DNA from: Trematomus loennbergii
Lineage: Eukaryota > Chordata > Actinopteri > Perciformes > Nototheniidae
NCBI GenBank assembly: GCA_012861695.1
Contig: JAAOOA010000652.1
Span: 186,315 to 250,314, forward strand
Reading direction: 5' to 3'
DNA length: 64,000 bases
Below, piece after piece: positions 1,412 through 37,042 of this stretch (positions are counted from its first letter, which is position 1; each line of letters opens with the position of its first letter). The position numbers and the translations under genes are program-made. The notes under the pieces are model-generated. The model did not search any database. It saw only the letters and a program-made list of their open reading frames with translations, and was not told where the DNA came from.

Positions 1412-1541
1412 AATCGAGCCTTGGGGAACCCCACAGGTAAGAGGGGCTATGGCTGAGGAGAAGGCACCTAGCTGTACGAGAAGCTACGGTCTGTCAGGTA
1501 GGACCTGAACCATGCAAGGGCAGAGCCGTGACAACAGGATG

Positions 1542-2030
1542 CTATGGTCCAGTGTCGAAGGCAGCTGTCAGGTCTAACAGCACCAAGACAGCTGGGCTAC
1601 CTGAGTCGGCGGCTAGGAGCAGATCATTAAAAACTCTTAAAAGGGCTGTTTCAGTGCTGTGCAGCGCGTCTGAGAGCACAAGTACAGTCATTGAGCCACG
1701 GCTCTGAGAGAACTTTGGTGCGTCTAAGCGTAAAGGAGCAACAGAATCCAGTATTAGTGTGCATGTCGAGTCAAACATGGAGATAAGCTCATCAGCACTA
1801 AAAACACAGTTCACCTCTAATTTACAGATAGGAGAAGCATTAAAAACATCAGAAAACTGTGAGGCAGTCAAGGGGTTAATCGAACGCAGACGACGCGCCG
1901 GGGCACGTGATTCGACTCCTGCGGAAGGGATGGAGGTTGTAAACAGAACCGGTAAATGGTCTGAGATACGCGTTGCTGCACATATTTCATCCACAGATAC
2001 AGACAGTCCAAACGATAATACTAAGTCCAA
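1542..2030 (-). pseudogene. LINE endonuclease end fused to RT start
   Basis: The 162-codon frame opens with the endonuclease's SDHLPV box, a normal catalytic end motif. It runs through the linker and then jumps directly to the HSTETALLRVFND and LVLLDLTAAFDT segments, which are the first reverse-transcriptase motifs. Family proteins have well over 100 residues between these points, so there is an internal deletion near plus-strand 1690. The frame is lost again just after the AAFDT box. Confidence 0.7.
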
Positions 2031-3097
2031 AGTGTGTCCTTTTCCGTGTGTTGGGCCACGGACTGAACGAGACCAAAAGAATCGAGGAGATTTAAAAAGT
2101 CCCTAACCAGAGGTTTGGACTCGCAACACACATGGACATTGAAGTCTCCGGACATCAAAACACGATCATATTTCACCATGATCCCGGACAAAAAGTCAGA
2201 AAAGTCATTTATGAAATCCTTATTGCACTTTGGTGGACGAGACACGACTGCGCAGAGTATCGGCGAGGCCGGGTTCAGTTCAAAAAGCTGCGACTCAAAG
2301 CTAGCATAGCTAGTTACAGGGTGAAGCAATCGGCATTGGAGGTTAGCTCTAAACACTGATGCTATGCCCCCACCATGGCCGGTGGCACGGGGGGAGCTGA
2401 AGAATGTACAGTCAGGAGGAAGAAGTTCAGAGAACGGTGTATACTCGCCAGCGTGGACCCAGGTCTCCGTCAGAAACATAAAATCCAGTTCACGAGAGGT
2501 GAAGAAGTCGTTTAGCAGGAACGTTTTGTTTGCTATCGACCTAGCATTTAGCAAAGCCATGCAAAGTTTTCGCTCTGGGCTTGCCGAAGGTGTAGTGCGT
2601 CTCAGCTGACGAAGATGTGCGTGTTGAACGCCGCGCGGGCCGGGAGCAGTCAGTCGGGCAGGAGGAGCTGGCAGTGGGCACAGCAGAGTCCGCAGCTCCG
2701 GAAAAACAGGGCGAATCCATCGATCCCTCACATGGCGTGCAGCGGGAGGGCCATGACATCCGAGGCGTGGATAAGTCCCAGAAGAAGCCGTCAGGTATGC
2801 CTTAAGATGGACCAGTGCACCACCACGCTTTCCCCGTCGTCTAAAGCGCTTTCGGCGAGGCAGGATGCAGGGCAACCGGTGCAGGTAGTTGGGAATATTC
2901 GACAGTAGAGGGGGGGGGGACGATTTATGGTTGCCAGATGTAGGTTTTGGCACCAATATCAACTCCAGTGAGGGTCTGAGGTGGAGGAGAGCTTGGCGAT
3001 CGTCGAGCAGAGCAGAGGCATTCTGACAAACATAAAACAAAAACAGGATAGCTAAAGGTAGAGAGCTGAGGGAACGGCGAGCCGACACAGGCGCCAT
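2021..3097 (-). pseudogene. LINE N-terminal region and apurinic-like endonuclease
   Basis: A 358-codon open frame starting at the element's first ATG. The first 80 residues are hydrophobic then basic (an RRRGKRGG-type stretch, usual just before the endonuclease in L2/CR1 proteins). The endonuclease follows from about residue 180, with MALLNARSIANK at its start, the FLTETW box and the SGDFNVH box. In this family the domain nicks target DNA to prime reverse transcription. The frame ends inside the domain, where homology continues in the next reading frame. Confidence 0.75.
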
Positions 3098-3110
3098 CTT
3101 GAATCACGTG

Positions 3111-4893
3111 TTAATAAAGGTTAATTAGTTTGTCTGTTTTGCACATCCTCATATTAATATCTTTGTACATCCGGCACTATATCAGGCACTAAACTGTTTT
3201 ATTGTAGAGATCACTTACAGTATCTTCTTGATTTTTTATATTCTATATTTCTATCATTGACCTTCTACTTTCCCCCTATGAAAGTATGTACTCTTAATAT
3301 TTTATTCATCAAATAACATTATTCAACAAAAATAACATTATTCAACAAAAATAATTCAATAACGTGCTTTAACCACTAGGCGGTGCACACAAGGTACACA
3401 CAGCATACCAATAATAACTTTGTATTATTAGTGTAGGACACACATATATGTATAACATCTGAAGATGTGTAGTTTTATTCATGTTTTTACATAATTGTAC
3501 AGGATATTGCTATACTATTTCTCATGTTTTACTTCTACACATTAATATCTGATTTGTAAAACATCACAGACAGAAAGGTATATCCGTCATTTAACAGTAA
3601 GCTATTGAAATTGTGATTCCATAGATGTGTCTCCATCACCCAAATCCCCTGACTATTCTCTCAACTCAGTATTTACATTCTTATATTCAAAGAAAATCAG
3701 TAATATCTTTAAAAACTACAAGTCTTTTTCTATCAGCTGTGCACCGTTATGGTGTAAATATAACCTATCTACCAATTGGATCAAATATAAAAGTCAGCCG
3801 AATTAGTATTGATACTGCAAGGAGACGTATTGTGTGAAAATAAATGTAAGATGTTGTTTAATTGTTGATATATTTATGATCCACGTCACGTATTCAGTTT
3901 TGGCGGCAGTGCTTCCAGTTTGTATTACAATGCCGTTATGTGATGACTTACAAAGAGAAAAGCAAGAACACTCGGAATAAAGTATTATTATTTTTTTTTT
4001 AAATGTTTTCGGATTTCACATTGCATAGACACAGGCTTCCCAACGTGCATTGCGGCTAAAACATCCAATCAGCGAGCTGAGGATCTTTCCTACGTCTGTT
4101 TCCGGTATTGTTCCTGTAATGAGAGTTCACATTTATGCTACATTGAAGTGACTGAATTGACTACACATCTTCAGAAACATAATTTGCTTCAGATATAACT
4201 CATAGCAATATTGTAACCATTAAGAAAAGCCAACTGCATTAAAAACCCAGTTAACAAACACTAGGTCAAGTATTTTTCCTTCAGTAATGAAGATGTAATT
4301 CCAATGTAGACACACCTGGGGTCGCTGTTCAGTCTGTTACGCTGAGCCATGCATTGTCTGGAACGTAAAAGGGACGAAGAAGACAAAGTGAAGTGACATA
4401 CTTCCGGTTCAATGTGAAAACATTCCCAGTTAAACAACAGAAACAAATCGCTAAATAAAAAGATAAAACACTGGCATGTAATTTACGTTAGAATAAATAG
4501 AATGGTTTTGAATAATAGATGAGAGTAAAATCTACGTCACTTTACAGCCCCGCCCACTTTTAGGGAAACCAACGCTGTCATTTGAACGGCGATCAGACTG
4601 AAGCCACAGAGCTCTTCTGTTACTGTCCTTTCTTCTGAGAGGAAGTTTGAGGTGTTTGAGGTGCAATAAACGACACAGCAGCTTGTTGGCATGTTAAAAC
4701 TCTGCCTCGCAGCTGGTGAAATTACAGCCTCGCCTACTGATTTTAATTTAACCATCGGATATCGAGCCCGATCGTCGATTTCAAATGTGTGCTCTAAAAT
4801 GATATTTATAAATTACTATTATCATGATTATAAGCAAGACAATAAATGGCAAAGATATGTAGAAAATAAACGTATTTGAGATACGTTCATACA
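3111..4893. other. No recognised gene
   Basis: About 1.8 kb of AT-rich sequence with only short unsupported open frames. ETS-like ACTTCCGGTT and TTTCCGG words occur around 4099 and 4396, and a poly-A/T run near 3990. I see no repeat structure and no exon I can defend. Confidence 0.5.
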
Positions 4894-4899
4894 AACGTA
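4894..4899 (+). repeat. Left 6-bp target-site duplication AACGTA
   Basis: AACGTA lies directly before the element terminus AGTAGTATTAC and is repeated exactly after the other terminus at 19435-19440. A direct repeat outside two inverted termini is the mark of one transposase- or integrase-mediated insertion of the whole 14.5 kb. Confidence 0.8.
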
Positions 4900-5014
4900 A
4901 GTAGTATTACAAATCCTGTTTCAATCACATTAGTATGCATAAAAAGTGACAGGTCACACCTGCCCTATCAGTACTACTACTTATGTTAAGTCCCGCCCCC
5001 TAATTATGCTAATG

Positions 5015-5540
5015 AGCCCCTTTGATATGCTAACGGGCCCCTTTGTTCGAGTGTGATCACATGTAGGTGTGACATTCCCCCATTGTAGTAGATCCTTTGT
5101 TGTGTAATCTAATTAGCCTTTGATGTCTGATCCCTTTGTTGTCTATCCTTTGATGTGAGGGGTGAGGTGTTTGTGACATGTAGGTGTGATATCCCCTGTT
5201 GTAGTAGATCCTGTGTTGTATAATCTAATTAGCCTTTGATGTCTGCCCCCTTTGTTGTCTAATCTAATTACCCTTTGATGTCTATCCTTTGATGTGAGGG
5301 ATGGGGTGTTTGTAACATGTAGGTGTTAACTCCCCATTGTAGTAGATCCTTTGTTGTATAATCTAATTAGCCATTGATGTCTGACCCCTTGTTGTCTAAT
5401 CTAATTAGACCCTTTGATGTATGTCCTTTGATGTAAGGAGGGAGGTGTTATAACATGTAGGTGTGTGTGTGTGCACCGGTGTGTTATAAGCCTTTGATGT
5501 CAATCAAATTAGCCCTTTGATGTATGTCCTTTGATCAGTG
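5015..5540 (+). promoter_or_regulatory. Left terminal array of CCTTTGAT/CCTTTGTT motifs
   Basis: About 16 copies of CCTTTGAT or CCTTTGTT in some 520 bp, within imperfect repeats of roughly 120-160 bp that also carry ACATGTAGGTGTGA, TAGTAGATCC and CTAATTAG. Inverted, the motif reads ATCAAAGG or AACAAAGG, the core bound by TCF/LEF and SOX HMG-box proteins. Subterminal repeats bound by the element's own recombinase are the alternative. It lies 0.2-0.7 kb upstream of the first reading frame. Confidence 0.6.
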
Positions 5541-5755
5541 TTTGTAACTATTGTCAAGGTAGTCTCTTTGAAGTTGTGTGAGACTGTCTCGCACCCCGTC
5601 CTCCTCTCACCTCTTCCCCTCTCACCCCTCCCCCCTTCCTTTTGCTGTGATGTCAGAAGATAGAGGTGGAGGGTGGAGTTAGATGAAAAATAAAATCCGT
5701 GCAAACTAGATAAAAAGCCACTCACCAAGTCACCTAAACTTTTCAAAAAACGAAA

Positions 5756-5941
5756 ATGGCAAAGAGACGCATCCATATGGGTTTAATCAGCGAGACGCCT
5801 GTGACAACTTACCGCCATCCGTCGGGAGCTCCAGTCAAGAAACGGATGCAGTATCTGTGCCGGGTTCAGACCCTCCGTCGGAGGCTCTTCATGAAAAATG
5901 GAGTCTGGATGTGTGAGACTGTCTCCCCTCACACCCCCTAA
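5756..5941 (+). CDS. Small basic protein, left arm
   Basis: A 61-codon frame, function unknown. It begins MAKRR and is rich in Arg and Lys, with a proline/threonine/tyrosine patch around residues 14-25 and a second basic cluster (LRRRLF) near residue 44. No signal peptide or membrane segment. It is preserved in the mirrored copy with a few changes near residues 7-8. The 15-mer GTGTGAGACTGTCTC lies both upstream (5576-5590) and inside its 3' end (5911-5925), each time followed by a pyrimidine-rich run, so the coding block may have arisen by, or be bounded by, a local duplication, or the pyrimidine runs may be splice acceptors. The composition would suit a DNA-binding or core-like protein; that is only inference. 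Confidence 0.45.
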   Translation: MAKRRIHMGLISETPVTTYRHPSGAPVKKRMQYLCRVQTLRRRLFMKNGVWMCETVSPHTP

Positions 5942-6269
5942 CACCCCCTCCCCTCCCCCCTGCCTGTCACCTCCTGATTTTCCTATCAGCCGTTAATTCT
6001 CATTCACTAAGTCACCTAAAACTTTTATTGTCCTCTCTAAATTAGATTAGTTTTTTAATATGATTTGTGTTAACTAAGGATGTTCTCTTAAGTTGTATGG
6101 CTTGTGAACTAATGTTTAATTACTTTATTAACTATAACAAAGTCTCTCTGAGAGGAAAATAATAATTTAAAATATGTTAATGACCCCCTGATATTGTATT
6201 TTGTAATGTTTAATTACTTCGCACAACTATTAATGAATCCCTATATGAAGTTACATGAGGCTACATTTA

Positions 6270-6480
6270 CTTGGGTTGAGCCCTGGATGATGAAAATAAT
6301 CTAAGTGTCATGTTAGGGGGGCATTACGGAACTCAGGAGTCCGCCCTTGGAGGCCTGGAGAGCGGATAAAGAGAGGTGTATTTACTGGTGTTGAGCCCTG
6401 GATGATGTAAATAGTCCAAGTGCCATGGTAGGGGGGCATTACGGAACTCAGGAGTCCGCCCTTTGAGGCGTTGTTAACAT
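6270..6480 (+). repeat. Direct duplication of about 112 bp, left arm
   Basis: Two copies of a unit containing TTGAGCCCTGGATGATG and GGGGGGCATTACGGAACTC, starting near 6277 and 6390. It looks like a duplicated G-rich non-coding box. The open frame on the opposite strand here is not considered real. Confidence 0.7.
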
Positions 6481-6819
6481 TAATGCTTTTGTTTTTGTTA
6501 CTAAGATACTTTTTTAGATACACTTTTGAAGTGAGCAACACTTTACAACTGGTAGAAAGTTAAGTACTTTGTATGGAATGGGGTTTTCTTTAGAGCTGTT
6601 TTCAGTGAGACAATGCAGTTTCTGATCATTTTAAGTTTTCAAGTTTCAAGGCTTTATGGCATATGCCCATTAGCTACAGTGTAGATATGTCAATGAAAAA
6701 CATAGGTCACAGGCTCCTCCAACAGTGCACATAAAACAGATAAAATACTGCAATAGAATGTTTTGATATGACAGATTTGTGCGTAATTCTCTCACAAAGG
6801 AACTGTAAGATACACGTTT

Positions 6820-8880
6820 ATGTATGGAAAACTTCATAACTTGGTAAAATATTCATTCATTTGTAACGAATTGAGTTTTCTTCAAGAATCAAACTCTAAT
6901 GGAGAGTTTATGATTTTTAACACTGTTTCGATGAAACAATGCAGTTTTTGATAACTTGACTTGACTAACATTACTTTTTTTAAATATATGTTTTTAGATG
7001 CTTTACTTTTGATTTCTTTCATGTTATTTTAACACATTACTTTTTTCATATTTTTCAACATACTGTGATATTTTTTTTTTCTCTCCTTTTTCCATTATAT
7101 TTTGAATATACAGACATTCAACGCAATAAGTCCCACCCCAATTAGCAAATCATCCAAAACTAAGGACCCCCACTAAGACGAACAGATTTTCTTTAAGACT
7201 GTGACTCTTAAAGGCACTTTGGGATTTTAGTAAAACAATCCAGTTTTCTGGAAATAACTTAAATGATTTTCGTTTTTTCTCCTACAAAGATACTTATAGT
7301 TACACTTTAATGGATGCAAAACTTTATAACTTGGTAAAATATTCATTAATTTGTAATGAATTGAGATTCTTAAAGAATCAAACTCTAAATGGAGAGTTTG
7401 TGATTTTAACACTGTTTCGATGAAACAATACAGTTTTTGATAACTTGACTTGACTAACATTACTTTTTTAAATATATGTTTTTGTTAGATGACTTTACTG
7501 ATTTTTGCTTTTTTCTTCCTTGCTTTTGTTTGTGTTACTAGGATACTTTTAGATACACTTTGAAGTGTGCAACACTTTACAACTGATAGAATAGTACTTT
7601 TGTAAGGAATTGGGTTTCTTAACAATCCTGCTCCATCATTAAATCACTTAATCTGCTACTTCCAGGCAAAAAGCTTTTAAAACTCGCATCGTGTATTAAG
7701 TCATGTCTTGGCAAAAATGAGAGTCCTGGGTGCTTTAAAACATTTCTTAGAACATTTTGATATATTCAAACACATAATGAACTGCAATGACTCACTGCAT
7801 CAAATTTATTTTACACTGCTGGGAGGACAAAACTATGAGACTCTCAGACCCTTTTGTTGTCAATCTAATTAGCCTGTCCTCATTCCAACTAAAGTAATTT
7901 AACCTAAGTGGAGCCAACCTAAGGAGTGGGCCCTACAGTCTGGGACTAGCTTACTTTTTAACATTCTAATCAAAGGGGCCCGTAAATATTATCTCCGCCA
8001 ATATGCTATATTCAAATATCAGTTAAAAAAAAATAAAATAAAAATAAAACTCATTTCATGTTGAAATGATCAAGGAAAAGCCAGTCAATGTTATGCTAAC
8101 ACAAACAAAAGTTCTGTTTTATATGTTGAAATATAATTTAAAAAACAACGATATAGTATTTTCAAGTCTTACTTTAGTATGGTAAAATTAAGAATAAGTC
8201 ACATTAAAGTTTGTCATGATTTTCCGTAAAATAGTCAAGTATAGTTTGTCAAAAGAATATGAAAAAATCATTTTGTAGAGTAGTATGTTGAAAATCTCAG
8301 TGTTTAACTGAACACACCTACACAACACCTCGAACAAAGGGGTAATTAGCATACAAAGGGGGGTCACTAGCATCAGTGGGGGAAAGGTGCTACGGAAATG
8401 AACTTTGAGGAGAACAGAGTTATACCGACTAATTATTTACGGCGTTCGAACGCATACCTCGTCAACCATCTGTTTACAAACTCAAAGATTATGATGGAGA
8501 AGAGATCAAGGGGACTTTTTTATGAGAAAGAGTTGAAAAAGTGAAGGTAGTACTTTTTTTATGAACAGATTTTCTTTAAGACTGTGACTCTTAAAGGCAT
8601 TTTCTAGTAAGACAATCCAGTTTTCTGGAAATAACTTGAATGATTTTTGTTTTTTCTCCTACAAAGATACTTATAGTTACACTTTAATGGATGCAAAACT
8701 TTATATAACTTGGTAAAATATTCATTAATTTGTAATGAAATTAGTTTCTTAAAGAATCAAACTCTAAATGGAGAGTTTGTGATTTTAACACTGTTTTAGA
8801 TGAAACAATGCGGTTTTGATAACTTGACTTGACTAACATAACTTTTTTTTTTTTTTAAATATATGTTTTTTAGATGCTTT
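6820..8880 (+). repeat. Three dispersed copies of an AT-rich repeat, left arm
   Basis: Related blocks at about 6820-7000, 7200-7490 and 8570-8880 share CTTGGTAAAATATTCATT, CAAACTCTAA, GGAGAGTTT, ACTGTTT and CTTGACTTGACTAACAT in the same order. Open frames over them are not alike in length and are probably chance. The region between also has repeated GTATAGTATGT-like words. No gene is recognised in about 6480-9130. Confidence 0.65.
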
Positions 8881-9509
8881 ACTTTGATTTCTTTCATGTT
8901 ATTTTAACACAACATTACTTTTTTCATATTTTTCAACATACTGTGATATTTTGTTTTTTCTCTCCTTTTTCCATTATATTTTTGAAAAACTACACAGTGA
9001 TTTTTATCAAAATACAACATGCAACTAATACATTATACAATATTACGACTTTTTGCGATATTTTCAACACAATATACTTGTACCTTTTTCTGTAGGGCTT
9101 CAGGATATTTGGCATGTCATGCATAAAAACCGGTGTCATCTTTCCTGAAACTGACGTGCTGTCCGTTTTACAAACAAGTTATCTTTCTGCTTCTTCACCC
9201 TCTGAATTTTCCTCCCCCGTCCCTATTCCTTCAGCCATCACAACAACAATCAAGTCAGATCTGTGAAATTAAACACCTCTCCCCAAAGCGTGACTTCCCT
9301 ATTGATGGAGTGGGGCCGTAGGGCCTAACCCGATTGGCCTAATATACTAACATGCAGAATGTATGGTATGTTTGAAAAAAGACTAACCATCTATCCAGTT
9401 CAAGCTGTCTTTAAGATGCGACATCGTGCTCTGACTTTTTCCGTAAAATCGTGACAAACTATTACTTATTCTTACATTTGACCTCTTGCTGCTTGGTTGG
9501 AAATGATAG

Positions 9510-9806
9510 ATGAAAAAGCTACAAAGCTTAAAGAACTTTTCTAAAAAACTCTCAATTCTACAGATGAATCCCCCCACTCAACGCAATAAGTCCGCCCCCC
9601 ACTCAGCAAATCATCTAAAACGAAGGACCCCACTAAGACGACCGTTGAAAACTAGCCAGGGATCTGAGAAAAACCAAGTCTCCCCCGCGAGTTGCAGCCA
9701 GGAACAAACTCCTGTCTCCTATCATCACCACCATTGTGGACACCCACATATTGCAGTACTACTGCTGCTGATGTTACTCCTGAGGCCAAGACGTCTCTGT
9801 TTATGA
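9510..9806 (+). CDS. Basic Ser/Pro-rich N-terminal frame, left arm
   Basis: A 98-codon frame overlapping the next one by 115 bases in another phase. From about residue 20 to 65 it is rich in Lys, Arg, Ser, Pro and Gln (RRTPLRRPLKTSQG), resembling a flexible nuclear-targeting N-terminus. The last 30 residues (histidine run, then leucine run) look like out-of-frame translation. A plausible reading is that the true protein begins here and continues in the phase of the following frame, through a frameshift or an intron. The function is not recognised. Confidence 0.35.
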   Translation: MKKLQSLKNFSKKLSILQMNPPTQRNKSAPHSANHLKRRTPLRRPLKTSQGSEKNQVSPASCSQEQTPVSYHHHHCGHPHIAVLLLLMLLLRPRRLCL

Positions 9807-10228
9807 ACATAGTCAAATCGGAGTTGGTTGATATTCTGGAGAGGGTGCTGCATCGGTACAGAGAAAAAATCTGCAATGGATGCCGAGTCAGTCACCCCGG
9901 CCAGAGGCAACACGATTGTCTGAATGACACTCCAGAATATTTCTTCAGAAACAATTACAACGCGTTAATGAAAAGTCTTTGGCTCGCCGACTTCATTACA
10001 GTGAATGACCAGAGTCTTAATGATAAAAAAACATTTACACGGCTGAATGGAGGATCCAAGGCGCTTCGGAGGCTTTTCTGTACAATCTCAAAAACTGCAG
10101 ACGCCTCAAGGAGAGACTTGAAAAGATCCATGCCGAGCTGGATGGATAGGAAGAAGACTAATAACCAGCGGTTGATTGAAGCCGGGGATTTTTTTTTTTT
10201 TCGATACTTTTACTTTTCTTTAAAGTAA
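9692..10228 (+). CDS. Cys/His-motif protein, left arm
   Basis: A 178-codon frame, the longest non-repetitive one in the element. Residues about 45-75 look alpha-helical; then comes ICNGCRVSHPGQRQHDCL, a C-x2-C-x(10)-H-x-C arrangement that could bind one zinc ion, followed by an aromatic, basic helical stretch (EYFFRNNYNALMKSLW) and a basic region. The last dozen residues, after a poly-T run, are probably not real. No named family is assigned. Similar short C-x2-C/H-x-C boxes occur in proteins of DNA viruses and mobile elements, so a replication or regulatory role is possible but unproven. Its mirror copy at 14142-14666 is nearly identical. Confidence 0.55.
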   Translation: MQPGTNSCLLSSPPLWTPTYCSTTAADVTPEAKTSLFMNIVKSELVDILERVLHRYREKICNGCRVSHPGQRQHDCLNDTPEYFFRNNYNALMKSLWLADFITVNDQSLNDKKTFTRLNGGSKALRRLFCTISKTADASRRDLKRSMPSWMDRKKTNNQRLIEAGDFFFFRYFYFSLK

Positions 10229-10235
10229 AATAAAA

Positions 10236-10475
10236 ATGGGTAACTACTATGGAAAACAATCTGTATATATCTATCAGAATGCAGTCAATACCTGTTTAAT
10301 AAGTGTGTTGTTGATGACGATTGAAAACAGAATGAATAGTGATCCCCGTGTAAACAGAACGGCTGAAGTTTGTAAACTAGAAGACATTTTGGATATCGTT
10401 CATTCTGGCAGTACTATTCCGGGTCATTGGGAAACGATTGTAAACGAAACTTTAAAAGTGGTACTGGAATCTTAA
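10236..10475 (+). CDS. Helical protein, first part, left arm
   Basis: A 79-codon frame rich in hydrophobic and polar helical stretches, ending at a TAA. The next frame (10509-10700) starts 34 bases later in another phase. Together the two parts have the length and helix pattern of a small all-alpha protein. In the right arm the base context at this stop differs, and no stop stands there. The function is uncertain; see the second part. Confidence 0.4.
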   Translation: MGNYYGKQSVYIYQNAVNTCLISVLLMTIENRMNSDPRVNRTAEVCKLEDILDIVHSGSTIPGHWETIVNETLKVVLES

Positions 10476-10508
10476 TTTTCCAAAACATTCTGTAACATTA
10501 CCGAAGAA

Positions 10509-10700
10509 ATGAAACAAACACCAAAAGTGTATCATGTGCTCGCATTGTATGCTCTGTTTGTAGATGTAATGCATCTTTGTGTCAAAAACAGCATACACAT
10601 GAATACTTTGGCCGAAGTGCAAAAACTCCATTATAATATTTCCCTTCATCTAGGGGATTCTGTGCTGGAGAAGATCATGGGGATGTTGCAATCAGTATAA
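10509..10700 (+). CDS. Helical protein, second part, left arm
   Basis: A 63-codon frame. Residues 9-28 form a hydrophobic helix (VYHVLALYALFVDVMHLCV) and residues 38-60 an amphipathic one. Order and spacing loosely recall the BH1-BH2 half of Bcl-2-like apoptosis inhibitors, which are known as accessory genes of several DNA viruses and adintovirus/Polinton-like elements. The typical NWGR core is absent, so this is only a suggestion; any small helical protein could look alike. A polyadenylation-like AATAAA lies just downstream, near 10730. Confidence 0.35.
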   Translation: MKQTPKVYHVLALYALFVDVMHLCVKNSIHMNTLAEVQKLHYNISLHLGDSVLEKIMGMLQSV

Positions 10701-11199
10701 ATGTATTACTGCTTCCTATGGGTGAAAACAATAAATTGTAAATATGAAATTCTGCAAATAATAAAAAGTGTTTTTACATTTAAAAACTGTTGTCTTCAAA
10801 TCATAGTATAGTATTTCCTACATATCATTTTTTTTAAAAGAGTCACAGTATAGAATGTCTGAACATTTATTTTTAAAAGTACTAGTATAGTATGTTAAAA
10901 GTATCGTGAAAAAGTCCAAGTATAGTATGTAGTTAAGAATTATATTATATATTTTGTCTGCAATGTCAGTATAGGATCTCTAAAAAAAAAAAAAAAAAAT
11001 GAGAGAAAGTCATAGTATAGTTTGACAAAAAGATCTTGAAAAAGTCATGACATTGTGTTGAAATGGTTTTGAATAAACACATCAGTATTTTTAAAAAGTA
11101 AAATGGTATCAAGTGCATCAGACAACTCAAATTACTCAATTTGAACCATATTATAAATAAGTAAAGAATGGTCATAGTATATAACAGGGCTGTTTAATA
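10701..11199. other. AT-rich spacer, left arm
   Basis: No gene. It contains a poly-A run near 10981 and recurrent AGTATAGTATGT-like words, mirrored at 13136-13650. Confidence 0.5.
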
Positions 11200-11735
11200 G
11201 TTTTCGGCGTTTCAGTGTTTTAGTGTCAGTGTCAGTGTTCAGTGGTGCAGTGTTTCAGTGTTTTGTTGTCAGTGTTCTGTGTGTCAGTGTTTTTGTGTTT
11301 CAGTGTTTTGTGTTCAGTGTTTTTGTGTTTCAGTGTTTCAGTGTTTCAGTGTTTCAGTGTTTTGTGTTTCTGTGTTTTTGTGTGTCAGTGTTTTCAGTGT
11401 TTCAGTATTTCAGTGTTTCAGTGTTTCAGTGTTTTTCAGTGTTTCAGTATTTCAGTGTTTCAGTGTTTCAGTGTTTGTGTCAATGTGTCAGTGTGTCAGT
11501 GTTTCAGTGTTTCAGTTTTCAGTGTTTCAGTGTTTTGTGTGTCAGTGTTTCGTGTGTCAGTGTTTCAATTGTCAGTGTCAGTGTTTCAGTGTTTCAGTGT
11601 TTCAGTGTTTCAGTGTTTTTGTTTCTGTGTTTTTGTTGTCAGTGTTTTCAGTGTTTCAGTATTTCAGTGTTTTGTGTTTCAGTGTTTTGTGTGTCAGTGT
11701 TTCAGTGTTTTGTGTGTCAGTGTATCAATGTTTAC
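11200..11735 (+). repeat. 8-bp array CAGTGTTT, left of centre
   Basis: More than 60 imperfect copies of CAGTGTTT with occasional TTTGTGTTTCAGTG variants. All three forward frames stay open because the unit lacks stops, giving spurious Cys/Phe/Ser/Val-rich proteins. Confidence 0.9.
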
Positions 11736-11825
11736 AGCCTTTCTTTGCTCTGATCAATCCCCAGGGATCCTCCCCTGGAAGGAATATAGCAGGATGAGAG
11801 AAAAAACATTTAAAAAAAAACGTAT

Positions 11826-11989
11826 CTTAGAGGTGGCTATAGCATCTGATGCAATTCTAAAAGATAGTCAGATTCCTAAAAAGTTACAAACGGATGCAGG
11901 AAACATTTGTTTCTTCAGCATCCGTTTGTAACTTTTTAGGAATCTGACTATCTTTTAGAATTGCATCAATGTATAGCCACCTCTAAGAT
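11826..11989. repeat. Central hairpin 1 (turning point)
   Basis: Inverted repeat with arms of about 73 bases, from CTTAGAGGTGGCTATA to its inverse, around a loop centred near 11907 (AAACATTTGTTTC). On both sides it is followed by the same inverted flank (CCAGGGATCCTCCCCTGG is itself a palindrome, at 11760 and 12037) and then by 8-bp arrays, so this is the true centre of the palindrome. Confidence 0.85.
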
Positions 11990-12082
11990 ACGTTTTTTTT
12001 TAAATGTTTTTCTCTCATCCTGCTATATTCCTTCCAGGGGAGGATCCCTGGGGATTGATCAGAGCAAAGAAAGGCTGTAAAC

Positions 12083-12172
12083 ATGACACACTGACACACA
12101 AAACACTGAAACACTGAAACACTGAAACACAAAACACTGAAACACTGAAACACAAAACACTGAAACACATAA
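12083..12172 (-). repeat. 8-bp array (AAACACTG), short block between hairpins
   Basis: About 11 copies of the inverse unit between the two central hairpins. With 12174-12432 it forms an extra block found only on the right side. Confidence 0.85.
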
Positions 12173-12173
12173 A

Positions 12174-12340
12174 CTTAGAGGTGGCTATAGCATCTGATGC
12201 AATTCTAAAAGATAGTCAGATTCCTAAAAAGTTACAAACGGATGCAGGAAACATTTGTTTCTTCAGCATCCGTTTGTAACTTTTTAGGAATCTGACTATC
12301 TTTTAGAATTGCATCAAATGTTATAGCCACTTCTAAGATA
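12174..12340. repeat. Central hairpin 2 (duplicate)
   Basis: Second copy of the 11826-11989 hairpin with near-identical arms and loop, followed by the same flank as hairpin 1 on its right side. It shows that a block of about 350 bp (array, hairpin, flank) was duplicated on the right side only. Confidence 0.85.
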
Positions 12341-12432
12341 CGTTTTTTTTTAAATGTTTTTCTCTCATCCTGCTATATTCCTTCCAGGGGAGGATCCCTG
12401 GGGATTGATCAGAGCAAAGAAAGGCTGTAAAC

Positions 12433-13135
12433 ACTGACACTCTGACACACAAACACTGAAACACTGAAACACTGAAACACAAAACACTGAAACACTGAAA
12501 CACAAAACACTGAAACACATAAACACTGAAACACTGACACACTGAAATACTGACACACAAAACACTGAAACACTGCAACACTGACACACTGCAACACTGA
12601 CACACTGAAACACTGCAACACTGAACACAGAACACTGAAACACTGAAACACTGCAACACTGACACACTGAAACACTGAAACACAAAACACTGAAAACACT
12701 GAAACACTGCAACACTGAAACACTGACACCCTGAAACACTGACACACAAAAACACAGAAACACAGAAACACAAAAACACTGAAACACTGAAACACAAAAA
12801 CACTGAAACACTGAAACACAAAACACTGAAAACACTGAAAGACTGCAACACAAAAACACAGAAACACAGAAACACAAAAACACTGAAACACTGAAACACA
12901 AAACACTGAAAACACTGAACACAAACACACTGAAACACTGAAACACAAAACACTGAAAACACTGAAACACATAAACACTGAAACACTGACACACTGAAAT
13001 ACTGACACACAAAACACTGAAACACTGCAACACTGCAACACTGACACCCAAAACACTGAAACACTGCAACACTGAAACACAGAACACTGAAACACTGAAA
13101 CACTGCAACACTGACACACTGACACAGAACACAGA
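12433..13135 (-). repeat. 8-bp array (AAACACTG), right of centre
   Basis: About 85 copies of the inverse unit, counterpart of 11200-11735 but longer, with variants ACACTGCA, ACACTGAC and CACAAAAA. It joins the unique right arm at ACTATTAAACAGCCCTG, the inverse of the left junction. Confidence 0.9.
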
Positions 13136-13654
13136 AAACTATTAAACAGCCCTGCTATATACTATGACCATTCTTTACTTATTTATAATATGGTTCAAAT
13201 GGAGTAATTTGAGTTGTCTGATGCACTTGATACAATTTTACTTTGTATGTGTTTATTCAAAACCATTTCAACACACAATGTCATGACTTTTTCAAGATCT
13301 TTTTGTCAAACTATGCTGTGACTTTCTCTCATTTTTTTCATTTTTTTTTTTTTTTTTTAGAGATCCTATACTGACATTGCAGACAAATTATATAATATAA
13401 TTCTTAACTACATACTATACTTGGACTTTGTTCACGATACTTTTAATATACTATACTAGTACTTTTAAAAATAAATGTTCAGACATTCTATACTGTGACT
13501 CTTTTAAAAAGAAAATGATATGTAGGAAATACTATACTATGATTTGAAGACAACAGTTTTTTGTTTTTTTTTAAATGTAAAAACACTTTTTATTATTTGA
13601 AGAATTTCATATTTACAATTTATTGTTTTCACCGCATAGGAAGCAGTAATACAT

Positions 13655-13846
13655 TTATACTGATTGCAACATCCCCATGATCTTCTCCAGCACAGAATCC
13701 CCCAGATGAAGGGAAATATTATAATGGAGTTTTTGCACTTCGGCCAAACTAGTCATGTGTATGCTGTTTTTGACACAAAGATGCATTACATCTACAAACA
13801 GAGCATACAATGCGAGCACATGATACACTTTTGATGTTTGTTTCAT
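13655..13846 (-). CDS. Helical protein, second part, right arm
   Basis: Mirror copy of 10509-10700. It differs by clustered changes near residue 31 (MTSLAEV against MNTLAEV) and one near residue 5, and is otherwise the same. The clustered base changes show genuine divergence between arms. The first part lies upstream at about 13880-14120 and is interrupted by different small changes from those of the left arm. Confidence 0.35.
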   Translation of the reverse strand: MKQTSKVYHVLALYALFVDVMHLCVKNSIHMTSLAEVQKLHYNISLHLGDSVLEKIMGMLQSV

Positions 13847-14141
13847 TTCTTCGGTAATGTTACAGAATGCTCGGAAAAGGAAGATTCCAGTACCACTTTA
13901 AAAGTTTCGTTTACAATCGTTTCCCAAATGACCCGGAATAGTACTGCCAGAATGAACGATATCCAAAATGTCTTCTAGTTTACAAACTTCAGCCGTTCTG
14001 TTTACACAGGGATCCCTACTCATTCTGTTTTCAATCGTCATCAACACACATTTATTAAACAGGTAATGACTGCATTCTGATAGATATATACAGATTGTTT
14101 TCCATAGTAGTTACCCATTTTTATTTTACTTTAAAGAAAAG

Positions 14142-14666
14142 TCAAAGTATCGGAGAAAAAAAAAAAAAATCCCCGGCTTCAATCAACCGCTGTTTATTAG
14201 TCTTCTTCCTATCCATCCAGCTCGGCATGGATCTTTTCAAGTCTCTCCTTGAGGCGTCTGCAGTTTTTGAGATTGTACAGAAAAGCCTCCGAAGCGCCTT
14301 GGATCCTCCATTCAGCCGTGTAAATGTTTTTTTATCATTAAGACTCTGGTCATTCACTGTAATGAAGTCGGCGAGCCAAAGACTTTTCATTAACGCGTTG
14401 TAATTGTTTCTGAAGAAATATTCTGGAGTGTCATTCAGACAATCGTGTTGCCTCTGGCCGGGGTGACTGACTCGGCATCCATTGCAGATTTTTTCTCTGT
14501 ACCGATGCAGCACCCTCTCCAGAATATCAACCAACTCCGATTTGACTATGTTCATAAACAGAGACGTCTTGGCCTCAGGAGTAACATCAGCAGCAGTAGT
14601 AATGCAATATGTGGGTGTCCACAATGGTGGTGATGATAGGAGACAGGAGTTTGTTCCTGGCTGCAA
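14142..14666 (-). CDS. Cys/His-motif protein, right arm
   Basis: Mirror copy of 9692-10228 with the same C-x2-C-x(10)-H-x-C motif. One early residue differs (Ser to Ile near residue 22), and one Asn/Lys change and a different tail lie around the poly-A/T run near the end. The shared part, with very few changes, spans about 165 residues. Confidence 0.55.
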   Translation of the reverse strand: MQPGTNSCLLSSPPLWTPTYCITTAADVTPEAKTSLFMNIVKSELVDILERVLHRYREKICNGCRVSHPGQRQHDCLNDTPEYFFRNNYNALMKSLWLADFITVNDQSLNDKKTFTRLNGGSKALRRLFCTISKTADASRRDLKRSMPSWMDRKKTNKQRLIEAGDFFFFSPIL

Positions 14667-14848
14667 CTCGCGGGGGAGACTTGGTTTTTCTCAGATCCCT
14701 GGCTAGTTTTCAACGGTCGTCTTAGTGGGGTCCTTCGTTTTAGATGATTTGCTGAGTGGGGGGCGGACTTATTGCGTTGAGTGGGGGGATTCATCTGTAG
14801 AATTGAGAGTTTTTTAGAAAAGTTCTTTAAGCTTTGTAGCTTTTTCAT
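14552..14848 (-). CDS. Basic Ser/Pro-rich N-terminal frame, right arm
   Basis: Mirror copy of 9510-9806. Because the same phase break before the Cys/His frame is present in both arms, it predates the duplication or is a true feature (splice or programmed shift), not a random assembly error. Confidence 0.35.
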   Translation of the reverse strand: MKKLQSLKNFSKKLSILQMNPPTQRNKSAPHSANHLKRRTPLRRPLKTSQGSEKNQVSPASCSQEQTPVSYHHHHCGHPHIALLLLLMLLLRPRRLCL

Positions 14849-15449
14849 CTATCATTTCCAACCAAGCAGCAAGAGGTCAAATGTAAGAATAAGTAATAGT
14901 TTGTCACGATTTTACGGAAAAGTCAGAGCGCGATGTCGCATCTTAAAGACAGCTTGAACTGGATAGATGGTTAGTCTTTTTTCAAACATACCATACATTC
15001 TGCATGTTAGTATATTAGGCCAATCGGGTTAGGCCCTACGGCCCCACTCCATCAATAGGAAGTCACGCTTTGGGAGAGGTGTTTAATTTCACAGATCTGA
15101 CTTGATTGTTGTTGTGATGGCTGAAGGAATAGGGACGGGGGAGGAAAATTCAGAGGGTGAAGAAGCAGAAAGATAACTTGTTTGTAAAACGGACAGCACG
15201 TCAGTTTCAGGAAAGATGACACCGGTTTTTATGCATGACATGCCAAATATCCTGAAGCCCTACAGAAAAAGGTACAAGTATATTGTGTTGAAAATATCGC
15301 AAAAAGTCGTAATATTGTATAATGTATTAGTTGCATGTTGTATTTTGATAAAAATCACTGTGTAGTTTTTCAAAAATATAATGGAAAAAGGAGAGAAAAA
15401 ACAAAATATCACAGTATGTTGAAAAATATGAAAAAAGTAATGTTGTGTT

Positions 15450-17540
15450 AAAATAACATGAAAGAAATCAAAGTAAAGCATCTAAAAAACATATATTTAA
15501 AAAAAAAAAAAGTTATGTTAGTCAAGTCAAGTTATCAAAACCGCATTGTTTCATCTAAAACAGTGTTAAAATCACAAACTCTCCATTTAGAGTTTGATTC
15601 TTTAAGAAACTAATTTCATTACAAATTAATGAATATTTTACCAAGTTATAAAGTTTTGCATCCATTAAAGTGTAACTATAAGTATCTTTGTAGGAGAAAA
15701 AACAAAAATCATTCAAGTTATTTCCAGAAAACTGGATTGTCTTACTAGAAAATGCCTTTAAGAGTCACAGTCTTAAAGAAAATCTGTTCATAAAAAAAGT
15801 ACTACCTTCACTTTTTCAACTCTTTCTCATAAAAAAGTCCCCTTGATCTCTTCTCCATCATAATCTTTGAGTTTGTAAACAGATGGTTGACGAGGTATCG
15901 AACGCCGTAAATAATTAGTCGGTATAACTCTGTTCTCCTCAAAGTTCATTTCCGTAGCACCTTTCCCCCACTGATGCTAGTGACCCCCCTTTGTATGCTA
16001 ATTACCCCTTTGTTCGAGGTGTTGTGTAGGTGTGTTCAGTTAAACACTGAGATTTTCAACATACTACTCTACAAAATGATTTTTTCATATTCTTTTGACA
16101 AACTATACTTGACTATTTTACGGAAAATCATGACAAACTTTAATGTGACTTATTCTTAATTTTACCATACTAAAGTAAGACTTGAAAATACTATATCGTT
16201 GTTTTTTAAATTATATTTCAACATATAAAACAGAAACTTTGTTTGTGTTAGCATAACATTGACTGGCTTTTCCTTGATCATTTCAACATGAAATGAGTTT
16301 TATTTTTTATTTTATTTTTTTTTAACTGATATTTGAATATAGCATATTGGCGGAGATAATATTTACGGGCCCCTTTGATTAGAATGTTAAAAAGTAAGCT
16401 AGTCCCAGACTGTAGGGCCCACTCCTTAGGTTGGCTCCACTTAGGTTAAATTACTTTAGTTGGAATGAGGACAGGCTAATTAGATTGACAACAAAAGGGT
16501 CTGAGAGTCTCATAGTTTTGTCCTCCCAGCAGTGTAAAATAAATTTGATGTAGCAGTGAGTCATTGCAGTTCATTATGTGTTTGAATATATCAAAATGTT
16601 CTAAGAAATGTTTTAAAGCACCCAGGACTCTCATTTTTGCCAAGACATGACTTAATACACGATGCGAGTTTTAAAAGCTTTTTGCCTGGAAGTAGCAGAT
16701 TAAGTGATTTAATGATGGAGCAGGATTGTTAAGAAACCCAATTCCTTACAAAAGTACTATTCTATCAGTTGTAAAGTGTTGCACACTTCAAAGTGTATCT
16801 AAAAGTATCCTAGTAACACAAACAAAAGCAAGGAAGAAAAAAGCAAAAATCAGTAAAGTCATCTAACAAAAACATATATTTAAAAAAGTAATGTTAGTCA
16901 AGTCAAGTTATCAAAAACTGTATTGTTTCATCGAAACAGTGTTAAAATCACAAACTCTCCATTTAGAGTTTGATTCTTTAAGAATCTCAATTCATTACAA
17001 ATTAATGAATATTTTACCAAGTTATAAAGTTTTGCATCCATTAAAGTGTAACTATAAGTATCTTTGTAGGAGAAAAAACGAAAATCATTTAAGTTATTTC
17101 CAGAAAACTGGATTGTTTTACTAAAATCCCAAAGTGCCTTTAAGAGTCACAGTCTTAAAGAAAATCTGTTCGTCTTAGTGGGGGTCCTTAGTTTTGGATG
17201 ATTTGCTAATTGGGGTGGGACTTATTGCGTTGAATGTCTGTATATTCAAAATATAATGGAAAAAGGAGAGAAAAAAAAAATATCACAGTATGTTGAAAAA
17301 TATGAAAAAAGTAATGTGTTAAAATAACATGAAAGAAATCAAAAGTAAAGCATCTAAAAACATATATTTAAAAAAAGTAATGTTAGTCAAGTCAAGTTAT
17401 CAAAAACTGCATTGTTTCATCGAAACAGTGTTAAAAATCATAAACTCTCCATTAGAGTTTGATTCTTGAAGAAAACTCAATTCGTTACAAATGAATGAAT
17501 ATTTTACCAAGTTATGAAGTTTTCCATACATAAACGTGTA
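15450..17540 (-). repeat. Three dispersed copies of an AT-rich repeat, right arm
   Basis: Mirror counterparts of the left-arm blocks, in the same relative order and spacing. Confidence 0.65.
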
Positions 17541-17869
17541 TCTTACAGTTCCTTTGTGAGAGAATTACGCACAAATCTGTCATATCAAAACATTCTATTG
17601 CAGTATTTTATCTGTTTTATGTGCACTGTTGGAGGAGCCTGTGACCTATGTTTTTCATTGACATATCTACACTGTAGCTAATGGGCATATGCCATAAAGC
17701 CTTGAAACTTGAAAACTTAAAATGATCAGAAACTGCATTGTCTCACTGAAAACAGCTCTAAAGAAAACCCCATTCCATACAAAGTACTTAACTTTCTACC
17801 AGTTGTAAAGTGTTGCTCACTTCAAAAGTGTATCTAAAAAAGTATCTTAGTAACAAAAACAAAAGCATT

Positions 17870-18085
17870 AATGTTAACAACGCCTCAAAGGGCGGACTCC
17901 TGAGTTCCGTAATGCCCCCCTACCATGGCACTTGGACTATTTACATCATCCAGGGCTCAACACCAGTAAATACACCTCTCTTTATCCGCTCTCCAGGCCT
18001 CCAAGGGCGGACTCCTGAGTTCCGTAATGCCCCCCTAACATGACACTTAGATTATTTTCATCATCCAGGGCTCAACCCAAGTAAA
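17870..18085 (-). repeat. Direct duplication of about 112 bp, right arm
   Basis: Mirror counterpart of the 6270-6480 duplication, with both copies kept. Confidence 0.7.
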
Positions 18086-18409
18086 TGTAGCCTCATGTAA
18101 CTTCATATAGGGATTCATTAATAGTTGTGCGAAGTAATTAAACATTACAAAATACAATATCAGGGGGTCATTAACATATTTTAAATTATTATTTTCCTCT
18201 CAGAGAGACTTTGTTATAGTTAATAAAGTAATTAAACATTAGTTCACAAGCCATACAACTTAAGAGAACATCCTTAGTTAACACAAATCATATTAAAAAA
18301 CTAATCTAATTTAGAGAGGACAATAAAAGTTTTAGGTGACTTAGTGAATGAGAATTAACGGCTGATAGGAAAATCAGGAGGTGACAGGCAGGGGGGAGGG
18401 GAGGGGGTG

Positions 18410-18595
18410 TTAGGGGGTGTGAGGGGAGACAGTCTCACACATCCAGACTCCATTTTTCATGAAGAGCCTCCGACGGAGGGTCTGAACCCGGCACAGATAC
18501 TGCATCCGTTTCTTGACTGGAGCTCCCGACGGATGGCGGTAAGTTGTCACAGGCGTCTCGCTGATTAAACCCCTATCGATGCGTCTCTTTGCCAT
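18410..18595 (-). CDS. Small basic protein, right arm
   Basis: Mirror copy of the 61-codon frame at 5756-5941. It differs near the N-terminus (MAKRRIDRG against MAKRRIHMG) and is otherwise the same where compared. Preservation of the frame in both arms is weak evidence for coding, because the arms are so similar overall. Confidence 0.45.
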   Translation of the reverse strand: MAKRRIDRGLISETPVTTYRHPSGAPVKKRMQYLCRVQTLRRRLFMKNGVWMCETVSPHTP

Positions 18596-18799
18596 TTTCG
18601 TTTTTGAAAGTTTAGGTGACTGGTGAGTGGCTTTTTATCTAGTTTGCACGGATTTTATTTTCCATCTAACTCCACCCTCTCTATCTTCTGACATCACAGC
18701 AAAAGGAAGGGGGGAGGGGTGAGAGGGGGAAGAGGTGAGAGGAGGACGGGGTGCGAGACAGTCTCACACAACTTCAAAGAGACTACCTTAACACTAATT

Positions 18800-19320
18800 A
18801 CAAACACTGATCAAAGGACATACATCAAAGGGCTAATTAGATTGACATCAAAGGCTATACACAGGGAGAACACACACCTACATGTTATAACACCTCCCAC
18901 CTTACATCAAAGGACAGACATCAAAGGGTCTAATTAGATTAGACAACAAGGGGTCAGACATCAATGGCTAATTAGATTATACAACAAAGGATCTACTACA
19001 AGGGGAGTTCACACCTACATGTCACAAACACCCCATCCCTCACATCAAAGGATAGACATCAAAGGGTAATTAGACAGACAACAAAGGGGGCAGACATCAA
19101 AGGCTAATTAGATTATACAACAAAGGATCTACTACAACAGGGGATATCACACCTACATGTCACAAACACCTCACCCCTCACATCAAAGGATAGACAACAA
19201 AGGGATCAGACATCAAAGGCTAATTAGATTACACAACAAAGGATCTACTACAATGGGGAATGTCACACCTACATGTGATAACACCTCGAACAAAGGGGCT
19301 CATTAGCATATCAAAGGGGC
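18800..19320 (-). promoter_or_regulatory. Right terminal array of ATCAAAGG/AACAAAGG motifs
   Basis: Inverted counterpart of the left terminal array, with the same ACATCAAAGG and ACAACAAAGG words and the intervening CTAATTAG and TCACACCTACATGT words. It is not identical: spacer lengths differ by small indels, so the arrays evolve faster than the arms. Confidence 0.6.
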
Positions 19321-19434
19321 TCATTAGCATAATTAGGGGGCGGGACTTAGCATAAGTAGTAGTACTGATAGGGCAGGTGTGACCTGTCACTTTTTATGCA
19401 TACTAATGTGATTGAAAGGATTTGTAATACTACT

Positions 19435-19440
19435 AACGTA
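19435..19440 (+). repeat. Right 6-bp target-site duplication AACGTA
   Basis: Exact copy of 4894-4899, directly following the right terminus GTAATACTACT. Confidence 0.8.
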
Positions 19441-19549
19441 ACGTGGGAGAAAATACGTTTCTAGCTAAACGTAATTGAGAATGCAGTTTAGTTCTGTGGG
19501 AACGTAAGTTTTTGGAGACAGGGTTGCAATTCGGGCCATACACGTTCGT

Positions 19550-19768
19550 CAACGTCAGATTGTTGCCACATATTTTGCCAGTTGCGATAATAAAACGGCC
19601 ACTTGGGTCTGATATAACATTGGACACAGAGAATGGGACAGATTTATGAACAAGAATTTCAACGCCTCGGGCCTTGCTCGAAAAAAGAATGGTAAAGCTG
19701 TCCCACCCACCCTCTGCAAAGTTTAAGATGGTCTGATGGTTGGAGGTGGGTTTCTTGCAAAAAGGCAA
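19550..19768 (-). pseudogene. L1/Tx1-type LINE endonuclease fragment
   Basis: The minus strand encodes a piece resembling an L1-type endonuclease: the segments RGVEILVHKSVPF, GRFIIATG and LTLTNVYGPN are the usual order in the middle of that domain. Similarity stops soon after NVYGPN. The other edge abuts the last 19 bases of an NLR leucine-rich-repeat exon at 19776, so the LINE joined or replaced part of that exon. Confidence 0.65.
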
Positions 19769-19937
19769 TTTTAGCGTGAACTGGAGACTCTCAGGTCAGA
19801 CCACAGGTTTTTTTAAACAGTTTTACTTTAAAACCTGCTCATCCAGCTTCAGGTTCATGTTAATAAAGTTGGTCAACATCTGTATCTTCATGCTGACATA
19901 ATTAAAACACTGAGTTTACTGTATTCCCTGGTTCCAG

Positions 19938-20111
19938 TCTCTCAGGCTGTCTGGTCACAGAGGAAGGCTGTGATTCTGTGGCTTCAGCTCTGAGCTCCGA
20001 CACCTCCCATCTGAGAGAGCTGGACCTGAGTAACAACGACCTGCAGGATTCAGGAGTGAAGCTGCTGTCTTCAGGACTGGAGAGTCCACACTGTGAACTG
20101 GAGACTCTCAG
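19938..20111 (+). pseudogene. NLR LRR exon, intact frame
   Basis: Exactly 174 bp, the usual size of an LRR exon in fish NLRC3-like genes, between TTCCAG and GTCAGG splice borders. It encodes [17 protein letters not shown], then [20 protein letters not shown] with the LxxLxLxxNxL pattern, and ends ELETLR. No stop in the proper phase. Confidence 0.85.
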
Positions 20112-20258
20112 GTCAGGATTATGCATTTTATTTTCAAGTGGTTTAACTGTTAATCCTTTTTATCCAGCTTCTGGTTCATGTTGATGAGGATGATCAACCT
20201 CTGTATGATTTTCCTGCTGCTTTTAAAACACTGAGTTTACTGTGTTCCCTGGTTCCAG

Positions 20259-20430
20259 TCTCTCAGGCTGTATGGTCACAAGGAAGGCTGTGTTTCTCTG
20301 GCTTCAGCTCTGAGCTCCAACACCTCCCATCTGAGAGAACTGGACCTGAGCTACAATCATCCAGGAGACTCAGGAGAGAAGCTGCTGTCTGCTGGACTGA
20401 GGATCCACTCTGGAGACTGGAGACACTCAG
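20259..20430 (+). pseudogene. NLR LRR exon, decayed
   Basis: Second LRR exon with the same borders (TTCCAG, GTATGG), but 172 bp. It is missing a base in the GGTCACA-AGGAAGG part and another near GGACTGAGGATCC, so the frame shifts. The LRELDLSYN core is still readable in pieces. Confidence 0.8.
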
Positions 20431-20770
20431 GTATGGACAGACAGACTGAAGGTGTCTCTAATATCTCAAATGTCCTGTTCTTCTTCTCATTTATGACAAT
20501 TATTGAAATTATATTTCATTGAGTTTTTACACCCTCATTGACGGCTGAGTCCACTCTACTCTATAAGAGACGCAAGTGATCACCAGCGGTTCAGTTTGGA
20601 TAGTTCTGACTGTGTTCGGGTAACGGCTAACAGAGCTAAACTCACCGCAGGACTCAGATTCTCTGATCAGAGGTTACAGGCTTACAACACAATCTGCCAG
20701 CTATGTGTTATAATTGTATCTTGATTATTTACTGGCCTGCTTTGGCCGATGATCAGCATATTACCTAGTC

Positions 20771-27645: not shown

Positions 27646-37042
<9,397 letters not shown>

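Follow-up and report, generated by a model that had tools for sequence, protein, structure and literature searches.

A 14.5-kb palindrome in the genome of Trematomus loennbergii and its multi-copy family, probable non-autonomous derivatives of Maverick elements

Excerpts of PMC8097293 describe intact vertebrate Mavericks (Polintons) as elements with (AGT)2//(ACT)2 or (AG)3//(CT)3 ends (and a third type of end in one species), 6-bp target-site duplications, inverted repeats of 46–1447 bp and a length of 12.7–24.6 kb. For viruses, snap-back particles of adeno-associated virus (AAV) appear under the name 'snapback' in parts of PMC8235507, and incomplete adenovirus particles are described as enriched for the left genome end in parts of PMC12090768 and PMC5033970. 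Here we analyzed a stretch of 64,000 nucleotides from Trematomus loennbergii (contig JAAOOA010000652.1, C652 below, positions 186315-250314; the window), which contains a palindrome of 14,535 bp at positions 4900-19434. The palindrome is similar to the vertebrate Mavericks of those excerpts in its ends, its 6-bp duplication, its total length and its order of accessory gene and integrase fragment. It is unlike them in that its inverted repeats are arms of about 7.2 kb as compared to 46–1447 bp, and in that it is a palindrome in which we found no PolB, ATPase, capsid or protease gene and only a fragment of the integrase.

The palindrome has the termini AGTAGT...ACTACT, and the hexamer AACGTA is found just outside both of its ends (4894-4899 and 19435-19440), as an earlier note on this DNA had stated; the limits of 4894 and 19440 that the note gave to the element are the outer edges of these duplications. 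Using BLASTN, we found an inverted self-match of 4895-11737 with 19439-12565 (6,927 columns, 96.5% identity), and this arm length and identity exclude an origin by chance. Seven blocks of 250 columns at 5893-7642 contain no mismatches or gaps, and up to 10138 each block has 0–2 mismatches and 0–5 gap columns (an almost identical zone of 4.2 kb). In the outermost 1 kb of the arms, blocks of 250 columns contain 4–11 mismatches each; differences are more numerous in the inner 2 kb, where an 8-bp minisatellite varies in length. The description 'nearly perfect' fits 5893-7642, and almost fits the stretch up to 10138, but neither the outer 1 kb nor the inner 2 kb. The center has no simple axis; it holds a 350-bp unit in two copies (11826-12524), with an inverted tip of its own in each. 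The features of the element are listed below (coordinates in the window).

4894..4899, no strand: left target-site duplication AACGTA, the same hexamer as at 19435-19440; once joined, the two flanks match paralogous targets without interruption
4900..12166, forward: left arm of the palindrome, from the end AGTAGTATTAC inward (BLASTN self-match of 96.5% and arm alignment; inner limit approximate)
4900..5075, forward: Maverick-like terminal segment; a Maverick elsewhere in this genome has a homologous terminal repeat (about 77% identity over the outer 176 bp, with 36 of the 41 outermost bp identical)
5132..5465, forward: subterminal 139-bp tandem repeats (Tandem Repeats Finder), with their mirror at 18822-19204
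5756..5941, forward: small basic open reading frame starting with MAKRR, with its mirror at 18410-18595 on the reverse strand; no family match
9803..10225, forward: main accessory gene, left copy, with the signature C-x-G-C-x-V-x-H-P-x-Q-x-Q-x-x-C; a homologue adjoins the integrase of the Maverick on contig C687 (37%, 108 columns)
10236..10475, forward: second accessory gene, part 1 (MGNYYGKQ...); the frame is broken in the window and uninterrupted in locus L055
10476..10700, forward: second accessory gene, part 2; the mirror of both parts is at 13655-14110, reverse
11209..11733, forward: 8-bp minisatellite GTTTCAGT of the left arm (Tandem Repeats Finder)
11812..11901, forward: Maverick integrase core fragment reading toward the center, 70% identical over 30 amino acids (aa) to integrase residues 139-168
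11826..12524, no strand: central 350-bp unit in two copies, each with an inverted tip (repeat search and self-comparison)
11917..11970, reverse: integrase fragment, inverted, first tip (tblastn)
12167..19434, reverse: right arm of the palindrome (BLASTN self-match and arm alignment; inner limit approximate)
12202..12261, forward: integrase fragment, second tip (tblastn)
12265..12351, reverse: integrase fragment, inverted, at the start of the right arm (tblastn)
12429..13126, reverse: 8-bp minisatellite of the right arm (Tandem Repeats Finder)
14142..14555, reverse: mirror copy of the main accessory gene (open reading frame list and signature)
19259..19434, reverse: mirror of the Maverick-like terminal segment, an inverted copy of 4900-5075 (limit approximate)
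19435..19440, no strand: right target-site duplication, the same hexamer as on the left

The window palindrome is one member of a multi-copy family in its own genome (1.208 Gb in 3566 contigs), which is the genome that we searched. With the outer 1 kb of the arm as query, 1620 candidates were found, and the best 40, which were scored, share 93–100% identity with it. The exact 15-mer of the end (with one ambiguous base) occurs 126 times (62 forward and 64 reverse), as compared to 14 times (7 and 7) for the reversed pattern used as control; the family is a large one. Among the 100 end places listed, 70 ends form 35 convergent pairs within 20 kb, 30 ends are unpaired, and no divergent or same-strand pairs are seen within 20 kb; the paired ends lie 5.3–16.7 kb apart, with 28 of the 35 spans between 13.0 and 15.6 kb. 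The protein of the main arm gene yielded 1165 candidates, and the best 150 include 31 convergent pairs within 9 kb, 88 unpaired matches, and no divergent or same-strand pairs within 15 kb.

Two of these 88 unpaired matches (in C1743 and C620) were read inward, and both belong to palindromes with a shortened second arm, so for these two we rejected the possibility of single-arm or autonomous elements. Some end pairs have odd spans (C23:19601627, 7.4 kb; C37:562491, 9.8 kb; C399:35632159, 8.7 kb; C27:3982975, 16.7 kb) and may represent other fold-back points or deletions. The 5.3-kb element in C641, in which long inverted arms are not apparent among the self-matches listed, looks like a deletion derivative. 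The copies in C209 and C741 have an identical right flank and hexamer, which points either to two haplotypes assembled as alternative contigs or to a segmental duplication.

Ten further copies were read as halves, cut near the middle of the element, which together with the window gives 11 copies and 22 halves. Perfect 6-bp duplications, the length typical of Mavericks, flank nine of the 11 copies (including the window's). When the flanks of the window palindrome were joined with a single AACGTA (a query of 406 bases), all 40 scored rows out of 1710 candidates crossed the joint without interruption; 12 of the 40 reach the end of the query, and the best has 99% identity. Since these matches run through the joint, empty copies of the target exist; they are paralogous copies of a repeated host sequence rather than the same locus in another individual. 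The duplications and the empty targets bear out the proposal of the earlier note that the whole palindrome was inserted in a single event. The insertion site (4694-4899 and 19441-19640) lies within a high-copy host repeat (the same 1710 candidates), and 19433-19795 on the reverse strand resembles, by eye, an endonuclease fragment of a long interspersed nuclear element (LINE), with no significant match in Pfam.

The genome contains 122 matches to the protein-primed PolB (PF03175), and the locus on C687 is a Maverick that carries both PolB and integrase and has a duplicated hexamer of its own, TACAAT, outside both ends. Both ends of this Maverick are similar to the palindrome end (which is of the (AGT)2 type in the window and in the other copies): the end upstream of PolB has 76.5% identity over 179 columns (E 3e-35; 36 of the outermost 41 bases are the same), and the opposite end has 77.0% (E 9e-37). 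The E-values given here for ends, accessory gene and integrase come from searches of single loci or halves only. Inward from its integrase-side end, C687 has a 270-aa gene followed by the integrase (Pfam rve, E 2e-13). The 270-aa gene shares the Cys-His signature with the main gene of the palindrome (37% over 108 columns, E 7e-23), and the central frame of the palindrome matches the C687 integrase (59% over 37 aa, E 4e-9) in a fragment that we take to surround the second catalytic aspartate. The order and orientation of end, accessory gene and integrase agree between palindrome arm and C687. Using tblastn, we found the integrase fragment in all 11 copies and in 18 of the 22 halves; no match was found in C56_L, C127_L, C895_L and C981_R, but a missing fragment in one half means little as the halves were cut near the middle. 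The central fragment allows the arms to be recognized as the integrase end of a Maverick, and this end is found in both arms. Taken together, the homologous ends, the shared gene order and the central fragment argue that the element is a Maverick integrase end joined to its own mirror image, and the window element is, judged by this homology, Maverick-derived.

In the copies seen, the center is the same short integrase stretch with varied tips. A 38-aa integrase piece (from C960) gave 549 candidates, of which the best 150 correspond to 137 places, each a possible palindrome. Thirteen of these places have two matches, all convergent, and in 12 of them the two matches are separated by 11–16 bp. 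The palindrome-type matches cover only about residues 136-198 of the 231-aa integrase reference, which is the C687 frame, truncated where the retrieved sequence ended. The center of the C408 copy has a single integrase fragment, immediately adjoined by the reversed minisatellite. C190 and C408 were considered as full-length integrases of the palindrome lineage and rejected, C408 because its long frame is a read-through of the minisatellite around a short fragment, and C190 on match coverage (residues 140-198) alone.

We found no complete core gene in the palindromes examined. No listed PF03175 match lies inside any of the 35 end pairs, including the window's (compared by eye, with 91 of 116 candidates scored), the integrase gene is represented in the window copy only by the central fragment, and no terminal repeats of Maverick size (46–1447 bp) flank a unique core, as the arms, each about 7.2 kb long, join in the center. 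These three observations show that the window element is not an autonomous Maverick. None of the 13 arm frames scanned against Pfam matched a capsid, ATPase or protease gene (the scan returned five matches in three frames, all below curated cut-offs), and a PDB sequence search returned one match, to a protease, with an E-value of 0.016. The longest arm frame outside the minisatellite has at most 186 aa, too short for a capsid gene. In 14 of the 22 halves, the main arm gene is matched in pieces that lie in different frames. The second accessory gene, interrupted in the window (10236-10700), is a single open frame at L055:5375-5836 (reverse strand) in C1743; its protein has two unnamed public relatives (P0005 and P0006, 86–88% identity), and the structure predicted for it is all helical with a mean predicted local distance difference test score (pLDDT) of 43, which makes it unusable. 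One search of viral contigs gave no match, and another gave one contig with an 18-base match, possibly by chance.

The earlier note had seen no polymerase B, integrase or capsid gene and had inferred arms with accessory genes only; a fragment of a Maverick integrase gene does, however, lie at the center. Its proposal of a non-autonomous, fold-back-like Polinton derivative is supported by the further copies, their duplications and the homology to C687, a Maverick with PolB and integrase whose ends are about 77% alike over 176 bp. Two results that the note would have taken as refutation, a lack of other copies with these ends and a lack of 6-bp duplications around other copies, were not obtained. 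The note knew of no family of this shape, and we likewise found no palindromic Polinton family in the open-licence literature as judged by titles and the openings of abstracts. From its ends and gene content, the window element can be classed as a putative non-autonomous Maverick derivative, which would work like a snap-back defective genome.

With no working core gene found, the palindromes are presumably mobilized in trans by enzymes of a helper, as their ends and duplications also suggest. Among the best 150 of 1425 candidates for the C687 integrase (L052, L054), 24 places are 100% identical over 231 aa with no stops, and 18 of these 24 have PolB on the opposite strand 6.6–8.0 kb away (41 of the 122 PolB rows were compared). 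These identical frames indicate a recently active Maverick lineage, and C687, as a member of it with ends related to those of the palindrome, is a natural candidate for acting in trans (the relatedness of the ends is known for this lineage from C687 alone).

The arms within a copy resemble each other more than arms paired at random and tend to belong to one structural subfamily: their mean 21-mer similarity is 0.797, versus an average of 0.425 for shuffled pairings, and 1 of 20,000 shuffles reaches the observed value. The most distinct copy in this comparison is C1944, whose two arms score 0.893 against each other and no more than 0.275 against the arms of other copies. Inside a subfamily, arms are paired less strictly. 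Two types of inner zone, one per arm, recur in three copies, namely the window, C209 and C56 (the left arm of the window is similar to C209_L and C56_R, and the right arm to C209_R and C56_L), which indicates that a palindrome with two distinguishable arms was moved whole. C761 and C115 have a single inner-zone type in both arms. Inheritance of the whole molecule and homogenization of the arms both seem to occur, the second by copying of changes from arm to arm; independent fold-backs in each subfamily would be an alternative to homogenization.

We consider it probable that the palindromes are a non-autonomous, Maverick-derived family that originated by snap-back and is replicated and integrated by a helper. 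An ancestral Maverick, related but not identical to the active lineage, would have kept nothing past the middle of its integrase gene, and the remaining integrase side, with terminal repeat, accessory genes and integrase fragment, would have been joined to its own mirror image. This could happen if, in the course of protein-primed synthesis with strand displacement, either the growing or the displaced strand folded back within the integrase gene and copying then proceeded as far as the same end, giving a molecule that has a Maverick-type end on each side but lacks a working core gene. The enzymes of a helper Maverick would then replicate and integrate the palindrome, generating the 6-bp duplications. 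Snap-back during protein-primed replication appears to be the likeliest origin, as it best accounts for one Maverick end in mirror image together with structural changes common to both arms. Defective adenovirus DNA reportedly contains long inverted duplications. As compared to the snap-back genomes in the excerpts on AAV, the palindrome is similar in keeping one genome end in mirror duplication and in presumably needing a helper; it is unlike them in that it forms a multi-copy family that is inserted into a host genome with target duplications and inherited there. Large miniature inverted-repeat transposable elements (MITEs) and other terminal inverted repeat (TIR) elements are also non-autonomous derivatives that retain the ends of an autonomous element, but an internal deletion would leave the two original ends in place, whereas both arms of the palindrome match one side of the parent type.

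A more far-reaching version, which we put forward tentatively and think somewhat doubtful, is that the palindromes are inherited snap-back defective genomes that parasitize Mavericks. They would exist outside the chromosome as linear, hairpin-capable molecules, copied from a single type of end by the protein-primed polymerase of the helper, with one arm templating the other; they would compete for polymerase, integrase and perhaps capsids and be re-inserted, in effect a self-homogenizing palindromic transposon.

Among the rival explanations, a chromosomal origin, in which head-to-head Maverick insertions or break repair by sister fusion lost their inner parts and were later mobilized via the outer ends, would give a product of the same appearance. 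The asymmetric center of C408 (one integrase fragment leading into the reversed minisatellite) could also be produced by end joining, and a palindrome with two arm types did move as a unit. We nevertheless judge this origin unlikely: each of the 11 copies read, and 18 of the 22 halves, contain the same short integrase fragment, and differing subfamilies (e.g. C1944 and C960) bear their own rearrangements in both arms, which would require either that arms were repeatedly copied from each other or that independent fusions happened several times. Foldback (FB) transposons are non-autonomous, with long inverted arms, internal tandem repeats and longer target duplications, and the palindrome shares the arms, the tandem repeats and the lack of autonomy with them. 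An unrelated element of this kind, with very long terminal inverted repeats and ends converged on AGT, is disfavored as very improbable, as FB-type ends and a longer duplication were not found, and Maverick homology extends from the ends through the accessory gene to the integrase with the order conserved, with a duplication of 6 bp. Long palindromes are also a known hazard of genome assembly, and C741, whose right flank is that of C209, may be an alternative haplotype contig; however, many palindromic copies with unrelated flanks, the same hexamer on both sides of otherwise differing flanks in nine of 11 copies, arms that differ by substitutions, and an uninterrupted version of the window's target elsewhere make a fold-back read or a contig joined at the center the least credible of these explanations, and an origin of the family by assembly fold-back was rejected.

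Several observations weigh against a helper-driven family of snap-back origin. Two copies have no perfect 6-bp duplication: C56, which lies within an ATT microsatellite with the two hexamers out of phase, and C115, with differing hexamers at its two ends. Integrase residues before about 136 are not found at the center, where the minisatellite region takes their place; a simple break within one gene therefore does not describe the joint, and the founding joint has been remodeled. The ends of the candidate helper are only about 77% alike over 176 bp, and the 24 identical integrase copies may include alternative contigs of a single place (the PolB coordinates of C1142 and C1606 coincide). The scored matches yielded no monomeric parent of the palindrome, and no scored match to the main gene lies, by eye, within 20 kb of a PF03175 match; longer degraded integrases of 46–67% identity do exist (e.g. 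C1356, residues 10-227, and C1210, residues 10-191, with stops in both), and these could be remains of the parent. For the arms, the partner arm is mutually nearest in only three of 11 copies (C981, C1944 and C761), and the joint inheritance of two arm types means that copying from arm to arm is not obligatory in every cycle.

A multi-copy, mirror-image Maverick end is the kind of product expected from protein-primed replication, which for Mavericks has, to our knowledge, been inferred from the polymerase and never observed. The family is natural material for tests of junctions, hairpin forms and arm-to-arm copying, and it suggests that Mavericks, like viruses, carry their own defective parasites. 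Long palindromes are usually thought to be unstable in genomes; the present family indicates that palindromes of 14 kb can spread and persist in an animal genome.

Other features found in the window include a LINE remnant at 1160-3103 (reverse strand; reverse transcriptase PF00078, E 6e-14) with further frames upstream, and a leucine-rich-repeat fragment at 19906-20457 (forward strand; LRR_6 at 19906-20181) with a similar frame, by eye, at 20147-20449. Such leucine-rich-repeat fragments are common in the large NLR gene families of fish. A weak actin match at 27966-28865 (reverse strand; E 1.2e-4, below the curated cut-off) has its frame interrupted by a dinucleotide repeat. A long AT-rich tandem array (GC 0.23–0.28) with several kilobase-scale offsets occupies 54499-64000 and reaches the end of the window, four further tandem arrays are found at 30633-33894, 39635-40673, 46639-47846 and 52113-53621, and the GC skew rises to 0.85 at 32–34 kb.

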